From assembly GCF_021028995.1 (NCBI RefSeq), contig NZ_JAJJZG010000003.1, forward strand, positions 62,001-126,000: DNA of 64,000 nt, in the 5' to 3' direction. Under the pieces are notes generated by a model. The model saw only the letters and a program-made list of their open reading frames with translations. It did not search any database and was not told the origin of the DNA. Positions within the stretch are counted from its first letter, which is position 1. The number at the start of each line of letters is the position of its first letter. This document shows positions 24,755 to 26,453 of this stretch, piece by piece. The position numbers and the translations under genes are program-made. Source of the stretch: Halobacterium sp. KA-4. Lineage in GTDB: Archaea; Halobacteriota; Halobacteria; Halobacteriales; Halobacteriaceae.

Positions 24755-24774
24755 CCCACGACTTCAGTCGTGGG
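24755..24774. repeat. IS200/IS605-type terminal hairpin, copy A
   Basis: Perfect 9-bp inverted repeat with a 2-base loop (arms cccacgact and agtcgtggg). It is preceded by gattcaa and followed by ctttctcct on the plus strand. The same context recurs in copy C at 26434, so A and C are direct copies about 1.68 kb apart. Copy A sits 20 bases after the CobW stop codon. Confidence 0.75.
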
Positions 24775-24796
24775 CTTTCTCCTCGAATTTCTGTAA

Positions 24797-25036
24797 TCAG
24801 CAGGCGCAGCCGTCGGCGTACGTGCGCTCGAAGCGCATCGAGCCACCGCAGTCCGGACACAGCGGCGTCCCCGCTTCGTCGCGATCCAGCCCCTCGTCCT
24901 CGATAGTCACGTCCCGCACGCGGACGCTGCAGTCGTCACACCAGTACGCACCCCGCGAGGCGTCGACCTCCACGTCATCCGCCCCCGACCCCGTGCTCCC
25001 CGACAGCGCGGCCGAAACCTTGTTGACGATGCCCAT
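24797..25036 (-). CDS. Small zinc-ribbon protein
   Basis: A 79-residue protein from ATG 25036 (MGIVNKVSAALSG). It has two Cys pairs, WCDDC and LCPDCGG, about 27 residues apart, which form a classic zinc ribbon, and ends with GCAC. There is no DNA-binding helix. It lies between two IS-type hairpins (24755 and 25097), on the same strand as tnpB and downstream of it. It could be a host gene beside an insertion or a passenger gene. Such small zinc-finger proteins are common in haloarchaea and usually uncharacterised. Confidence 0.7.
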   Translation of the reverse strand: MGIVNKVSAALSGSTGSGADDVEVDASRGAYWCDDCSVRVRDVTIEDEGLDRDEAGTPLCPDCGGSMRFERTYADGCAC

Positions 25037-25096
25037 GCGTGAGCATAGCATTCGACTACCTTAGTTCCCGGGTTCCGCCGGCCAAGAGTTGAGCTA

Positions 25097-25116
25097 CCCA
25101 CGACTGAAGTCGTGGG
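25097..25116. repeat. IS200/IS605-type terminal hairpin, copy B (right end of tnpB element)
   Basis: Perfect 9-bp inverted repeat (cccacgact and agtcgtggg with loop ga) 46 bases beyond the tnpB stop codon. Its flanks, read on the minus strand, are tgaat before and tagctcaa after, unlike copies A and C. This position fits the right end of a TnpB element. Confidence 0.75.
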
Positions 25117-25161
25117 ATTCAGCGTGGACTCCCGTTCTAGGCACTCGTCGTGCCAGGAGAA

Positions 25162-26346
25162 TTAACCTCCGTTCACGTTCAGCGTCCCACTGTGTAAGCG
25201 CACGCCCAAGGGTGCGCCTCCGTCGCCCCCGGTTTGGTTGCGACGGAGATACCGCAATCCAATATTTTTCGCGGCGTTGTAGTCCGCGTGATTCTCGTAG
25301 TCACACTTCAGACACTGGAAGGCTTCGCTGTCGCGGTTGTCTGGGTGCGTGAATCCACAGTGTGAGCATCGCCGACTCGTGTTCTCTGGATCAACCTGCT
25401 CAACCGCGATTCCATGTTCTGTGGCCTTGTACTGGACGTACTCGTGGAGGCGGTTAAACGCCCATTTGTGCCCCCACGACGCGCCCGTGCGTTCGCGAAT
25501 ATCAGTCAAGTCCTCGAAGACGATGACCGAACAGTCGTGCTGGCGGGCTTCAGCAACCAGTTCGTTGCTGATGCGATGCAGTGTCTGCGTGAACCGCCCT
25601 TCTTCTTTTCGCCCAACGGATTGGATGTTCTCGTGCGCCCATCGCGTTCCACACCGCTGAAGGTCGCCACGACGCTTCTCGTACTCTCGTCGCCAGTGGT
25701 CGAACTCATCACCCGTCCAGAACGTGCCCGTGCTGGTGACCGCAAGGTTGTTCACGCCGAGGTCAACCCCGAGAACTGTTCCGTTCTCAGTGGCTTGGTC
25801 CGGCGTGGCCGACTCCACCTCCTTCTTGCAGTGGACGTGAAGCACCCAGTTACCGTCTCGATAGTGCAGTTCCGCGCCCGTGGTTTCGTAGTCGTCCGAG
25901 AAGAGGTATTCGGCGTGGGGTGTATCGCTGTCTTCGTCGGGGAGGATGTAGTCGGCTTCAACGCGTCCGTCGGTCGTGGCGAGAGAGACGTATTCGTCGT
26001 GGAAGGTGGCGGTACGGTGGTCGTAGACGACATGTGGGCTGGTGAAGCGCGGCTTGCTGGCTTTCTTGCCGTGCTTCCAGCGGGCGACGACGCTTTTGGC
26101 GGCTTCAGCAGCCTTGTTCCGGGCGGCTTGCACCAACCCAGCGTTGAACCCACCTGTTTGCTCGCGCACGTCATCGTAGGTGTCGTCATCCAACTGTGTT
26201 TTGCTGGTGGTGACGTACTCGCCGTCGAAGGCGTGATCGGTGACGTATTGAGCCGACCAGAGGAAGGTGTCGACGGTGTCTTCGAGGAGTGCAGCGGCGT
26301 CACTGGCCACGTTGAGTGCAACAGGGACGGTACGCCGCATCTCCAT
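25162..26346 (-). CDS. tnpB: RNA-guided endonuclease TnpB
   Basis: TnpB nuclease of the IS200/IS605 superfamily, ancestor-type relative of Cas12. It has 394 residues. The three RuvC acidic residues are in place: Asp in [13 protein letters not shown], Glu in VIVFEDLTD and Asp in [12 protein letters not shown]. The inserted zinc finger has CSHCG and CLKCD. The coding frame is intact and probably active. A TATA-like aatataag on the minus strand (plus 26371-26378) lies 25-32 nt before ATG 26346, while an ATG at 26340 is a minor alternative. The 3' end should overlap the guide RNA. Confidence 0.95.
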
Positions 26347-26370
26347 ACCTTATATGGAGGTTTAGGGTTT

Positions 26371-26378
26371 CTTATATT
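26371..26378 (-). promoter_or_regulatory. TATA-like element of tnpB
   Basis: The minus-strand sequence aatataag is 25-32 nt before the tnpB start at 26346, fitting a leaderless transcript. A second AT-rich block (plus 26347-26360, cttatatggagg) lies too close to the start to act as TATA box. Confidence 0.45.
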
Positions 26379-26433
26379 CTGGAGAGTCGGCCTGCTACAG
26401 TCGCGTGGTTTGGTTCAGCACTGACGGATTCAT

Positions 26434-26453
26434 CCCACGGCTAAAGCCGTGGG
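26434..26453. repeat. IS200/IS605-type terminal hairpin, copy C
   Basis: Perfect 9-bp inverted repeat (cccacggct and agccgtggg, loop aa), preceded by gattcat and followed by gttttctcct. Compared with copy A, paired positions differ in both arms (act/agt to gct/agc), so the base-pairing is preserved. It is 88 bases upstream of the tnpB start. Confidence 0.75.

Follow-up and report, generated by a model that had tools for sequence, protein, structure and literature searches.

Evidence for two separate IS200/IS605-family insertions beside a zinc-ribbon gene in Halobacterium sp. KA-4

Three related hairpins, A, B and C, lie around a tnpB gene and a small zinc-ribbon gene in the window, the stretch of 64,000 nucleotides from Halobacterium sp. 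KA-4 analysed here. We consider it very probable that they record two independent IS200/IS605 single-strand insertions about 0.3 kb apart, a tnpB element reaching from C through tnpB to B and a remnant at A, and that the zinc-ribbon gene belongs to the host. Four observations carry this reading: the two inserts are separately absent from relatives, the zinc-ribbon gene has host status, the ends follow guide-target rules, and A has a full-length relative. The features are as follows.

23500..24735, + strand: CobW-family gene, tested stretch; its stop TGA lies within insertion A (Pfam)
24732..24792, - strand: insertion A, probable 61-bp core-deleted remnant with the left end of an IS605-type element of the tnpA-tnpB kind; last bases GTCAC (joints, relative in genome G011, end reading)
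24755-24774, - strand: hairpin A, CCCACG-N8-CGTGGG, fully paired
24775..24778, - strand: left-end guide of A, AAAG (sequence reading)
24793..24796, - strand: left-flank tetranucleotide of A, TTAC; CTAC in three relatives (joints)
24797..25051, - strand: zinc-ribbon gene, start at 25051 or maybe 25036; host gene outside both elements (ORF list, homologues, synteny in relatives)
25069..25088, - strand: right flank, predicted omega-RNA guide segment (role by analogy with the TnpB family)
25089..25092, - strand: right tip TCAA (joints, end rule)
25089..25175, - strand: predicted omega-RNA 3' scaffold comprising the tnpB 3' end, a covarying stem, a conserved core and the right-end hairpin (34-sequence alignment)
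25089..26471, - strand: IS1341-type (tnpB-only) IS200/IS605-family element, 1383 bp (empty sites in four same-genus genomes, end rules)
25097-25116, - strand: hairpin B, right-end palindrome of the tnpB element, CCCACG-N8-CGTGGG, fully paired
25117..25120, - strand: right-end guide GAAT (end rule)
25162..26346, - strand: tnpB, 394 aa, RNA-guided nuclease family (ORF list, Pfam)
26434-26453, - strand: hairpin C, left-end subterminal palindrome of the tnpB element, CCCACG-N8-CGTGGG, fully paired
26454..26457, - strand: left-end guide AAAA, predicted partner of TTAT (end rule)
26472..26475, - strand: left-flank tetranucleotide TTAT; TTAG at the same place in four relatives (joints, end rule)

The tnpB element and its empty sites

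Re-reading the sequence confirmed what the original prediction had described, namely three hairpins with like flanks at A and C and different ones at B, an open tnpB, and a zinc-ribbon gene between A and B, where an ORF was found. On the + strand, GGATTCA(A/T) before and (C/T)TTTCTCCT after the hairpin are common to A and C. Their stems, said to differ yet stay complementary, do so at one compensated pair (A-T versus G-C). The exact pattern CCCACG-N8-CGTGGG occurs at 10 places in the 3.34-Mb genome and its reversed control at none; combining the pattern search with TnpB matches placed seven of the ten beside a tnpB, B and C included, and left A, C1:49269 and C19:21059 with no adjoining tnpB. 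The copy at C1:49269 (L021, G000:C1:49269-49288) is a solo left-end-type hairpin with TCAC and guide GAAG, outside the tnpB-flanking hairpin set.

Because tnpB is on the minus strand, C is the upstream, left end of the element and B the downstream, right end. By eye, its product carries what we take to be the RuvC-type D/E/D motifs, and Pfam matches to Cas12f1-like_TNB (PF07282, 1.4e-21) and OrfB_IS605 (PF01385, 8.3e-8) identify a TnpB/Cas12f-like nuclease gene. The guides at the subterminal hairpins match the element's own flank and tip, and the joints show no target-site duplication, with the relatives' empty sites one base off; two other elements likewise have gap-free empty joints. There is no tnpA among the element's reading frames in the ORF list, and the TnpA of the G011 element related to A, used as a query in this genome, matched four places at no more than 44% identity, none on the window's contig. 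An Rfam search of 24500-26700 gave nothing near the gathering score (best E 0.1). Two tnpB copies in Candidatus Methanohalarchaeum thermophilum (L133, L135) are 80% identical to that of the window, which suggests transfer between distant archaeal lineages.

A search for other copies and for empty sites, as had been proposed with the original prediction, was productive on both counts. The genome holds 41 matches to the window TnpB; among the best 15 of these 41, whose flanks were examined, the left end was recognisable by the rule in six and the right end in nine. In four genomes of the same genus (G011, G002, G008 and G012), the surrounding sequence aligns on either side of the tnpB element, and likewise on either side of A; both inserts are absent, at two separate joints, and the zinc-ribbon gene is still there. 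At the empty site of G011, TTAG is followed by the same 20 bases as the window's right flank.

The zinc-ribbon ORF matched no Pfam family at E 0.001, and a homologue was found in 44 of 98 genomes searched, its own included. This distribution, together with its retention in relatives that lack the inserts, indicates an ordinary host gene and no cargo. The tnpB element sits 37 or 52 nt upstream of its start, according to which of two possible start codons is taken. A lies between the convergent zinc-ribbon and cobW genes, at the cobW stop codon. In G011 the two stop codons abut, and this is A's insertion point; the cobW stop is a TGA supplied by A here and a TAG in G011, and the protein end, EPEPATQ, is the same in both.

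Origin of insertion A

Insertion A extends over 61 bp, from just after TTAC to GTCAC. A 75-base query around it found a tnpA-tnpB element elsewhere in G011, the nearest relative examined, and matched its left end at 91% identity over 65 nt. That element is 1722 bp long, encodes a 129-aa TnpA, ends in the right tip GTCAC behind guide GAAG, and has a gap-free CTTAC joint in G000 and G009. From a search of 243 genomes, with at most three candidates scored per genome, we examined 18 A-like loci at 17 places. Five of them (L092, L273, L276, L281 and L283, the G011 element included) have a TnpA at 89.9-100% identity 73-75 nt downstream; some others have a distant tnpB, and the rest show neither gene within the locus. 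No further copy of A's short form was recognised among these 18 loci, drawn from at least 59 matches listed. The suggestion that A could be the relic of an earlier insertion held up in part: A appears to be the relic of an insertion by another, tnpA-bearing subfamily, whichever of the two came first.

The larger claim, that A to C might be one mobile unit carrying the zinc-ribbon gene as a passenger, did not survive the comparison with relatives. The hairpins at A and C are both of left-end type, point the same way and have similar flanks 1.68 kb apart, as a composite unit of about 1.74 kb would have them. However, relatives have the zinc-ribbon gene beside cobW with neither insert, the two being missing at separate joints, and the element closest to A bears a tnpA and has the guide AAAG, whereas C has AAAA. 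Two observations that had been named in advance as counting against such a unit were, in essence, made: further copies of the tnpB element each have a single left and a single right hairpin, and left ends like that of A turn up at unrelated places in other genomes. We therefore regard the composite unit as extremely improbable. It is also very improbable that A is no transposon derivative at all, only a transcription terminator or a chance palindrome at a convergent gene junction. Its place between two convergent genes and the T-rich stretch after the hairpin on the + strand would suit a terminator, a role A may serve secondarily, but its absence as an insert from relatives and its 91% identity to a transposon left end point to insertion.

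How a derived element came to end where A does is a finer question, since its final bases can be read either as the right tip GTCAC or as internal left-end sequence like that of relatives (CGCCAC, CGACAC). In our preferred account, A would have arisen through loss of the core from a complete tnpA-tnpB insertion; its last five bases equal the right tip of the G011 element, as such a deletion would give. The alternative is one-ended transposition with the internal CGTCAC as right cleavage site. It draws on the way A tracks the internal left-end sequence almost to the last base (CATACGTCAC versus CATACGCCAC in G011), but A has no second hairpin to serve as a right end, and we judge it rather unlikely, though a serious contender. 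As for how the ends moved, TnpA acting in trans could bind the hairpins and, through guide-target pairing, excise and insert the ends. The empty allele may be cut by TnpB with an omega-RNA that takes its guide from the right flank, and such cutting would favour retention of the element.

Single-hairpin forms were also seen elsewhere. One, at positions 1483-1528 of L026 (G000:C19:21041-21086), is a 46-bp solo element in which a left end runs straight into the right tip CTGAC; its left part matches the left end of the tnpB element on C8 at 98% identity, and one relative has TCAT before the right flank, by eye, the left flank being unalignable. Five loci in several haloarchaeal genomes (L096, L098, L282, L284 and L286) have the form TTAC...hairpin...GTCAC, joining a left-end guide to a right-end tip. 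One search pattern for such fused forms matched once in 11 genomes and was too strict to gauge their abundance.

A guide-target code at the ends

To describe the ends, we used a rule that follows the published guide pairing of IS608 and in which the target or tip reads T, the complement of guide base 1, A, and the complement of guide base 4. It was applied to 77 loci (15 own and 62 of 69 named loci), from which 25 left and 12 right ends were dropped for want of a hairpin above the score cut-off; six left and nine right ends of the 15 own loci were kept. With a spacing of 13-16 allowed, 49 of 52 left ends had the predicted target, where 2000 shuffles gave a mean of 21.8 and never more than 36. 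With a spacing of 3-6, 61 of 65 right ends had the predicted tip, against a shuffled mean of 27.8 and a maximum of 41. These shuffles ignore the relatedness of the elements, and since only bases 1 and 4 are used, a few guides whose middle differs (GATA, GAGT, AATG) are scored as fitting. The window element fits at both ends; the misses are L121, L134 and L155 on the left and L127, L145, L151 and L159 on the right. Left-end states were AAAA/TTAT (22), GAAA/TCAT (23 of 24), AAAC/TTAG (2) and GAAG/TCAC (1), and the main right-end states GAAT/TCAA (28 of 29), AAAG/TTAC (28) and CAAG/TGAC (3). In a second set of left ends, mostly AAAG/TTAC, 36 of 41 targets fit; this set was mostly selected by pattern (guide AAAN, T after the hairpin) and is uninformative on guide base 1 and the third base.

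A third base varies with the code. In 50 of the 52 left ends, guide base 1 goes with a set partner at the second position 3' of the hairpin (A and T in 24, G and G in 26; exceptions L122 and L155); the scorer favours guides (A/G)AAN and a T or G at that second position, not their pairing. This covariation is in keeping with the IS608 triplet at target position -3. The guide states need only five changes on a TnpB tree that holds 45 of the 52 rows (six were left out for stops and one for lack of coordinates), so the end statistics rest on few independent switches. The sets TTAC/AAAG, TTAT/AAAA, TTAG/AAAC, TCAT/GAAA and TCAC/GAAG lead us to a tentative proposal, for which we claim somewhat less than an even chance: the target of haloarchaeal IS605/IS1341 elements would be recoded by matched changes in guide, target and third base, with the adjacent-motif preference of TnpB following, so that code and motif co-evolve.

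One finding sits awkwardly with two simple insertions. The flanks in the window (26472-26475 and 24793-24796) fit the elements' own code exactly, and those of relatives are one base off: TTAT here against TTAG in all four relatives at the tnpB-element site, and TTAC here against CTAC in three relatives at the A site. The target at the time of insertion is therefore only putative. Rewriting of the flank to the element's code upon insertion was tested on other elements and is disfavoured. Empty sites of L002 (eight loci given, five aligned on both sides, two gap-free joints) read TTAG at both joints, those of the G011 element (12 loci, two gap-free joints, the others unalignable at the joint) TTAC at both, and those of L012 (11 genomes) TCAC in nine, with GCAC and TGAC in the other two. 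These empty sites agree with the end rule. Because the targets are mostly unchanged, prior mutation in this lineage is the simpler account of the one-base differences, if not a proven one.

The right end may also function as RNA. Across 34 aligned 3' regions the GAGT core is invariant, and RNAalifold gave 22 pairs, eight of them with changes on both sides, including two in the stem that follows tnpB (in 13 and 14 sequences) and three in the right-end hairpin (15, 16 and 3 sequences). Alignment and covariation fit the predicted omega-RNA scaffold. For the right ends tested, the compensatory changes support selection on the hairpin and the adjoining RNA stem, and this hairpin doubles as the putative DNA site of the transposase.

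Relation to known systems

Our analysis does away with an apparent composite transposon and its supposed passenger gene. It also lets the IS608 guide-target and base-triplet model, which was built on crystals and engineered ends, be tested on natural variation in many haloarchaea, and the code predicts the adjacent motif that each TnpB should need. The mechanism and the short derivatives are already published; what may interest specialists is the natural three-way covariation, of which a literature search, with subscription papers mostly outside its scope, found no report at haloarchaeal ends.

IS608 of Helicobacter pylori uses a tetranucleotide guide at the hairpin foot to pair both its target and its right tip, and bases lying 3' of the hairpin contribute to triplets (PMC5934647). 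The ends here resemble it in their subterminal hairpins with 4-nt guides and in insertion 3' of a target that stays in the left flank; the IS608 left flank TTAC with guide AAAG recurs at A, and its right tip TCAA with guide GAAT at B. In contrast to IS608, the window element has no tnpA, and its left guide and target at C are AAAA and TTAT.

A tnpB-only expansion in haloarchaea, with PATEs and 52-bp terminal-only forms in Haloquadratum walsbyi, is described in PMC3119063. The likeness extends to tnpB-only elements with near-terminal palindromes and to very short derivatives, 52 bp there, without transposase. A shares with PATEs a length too short to code and the lack of terminal inverted repeats and of target duplication, but it has a single hairpin instead of palindromes near both termini, so we do not file it as a PATE. 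The walsbyi terminal-only forms, in which deletion between the palindromes leaves one hairpin and both tips, compare with the 46-bp element at C19:21059; A differs in keeping 23 nt of left-end sequence past its hairpin. Y1 transposase classes and their guides are treated in PMC6006769, where REP sequences with TnpAREP likewise pair short hairpins with a 4-nt guide, whereas A has an IS200-type left end. For the RNA, the omega-RNAs of Halobacterium salinarum (PMC12558985) offer a parallel: they lie at the 3' end of tnpB and combine conserved stems with a right-end hairpin, the arrangement predicted here.
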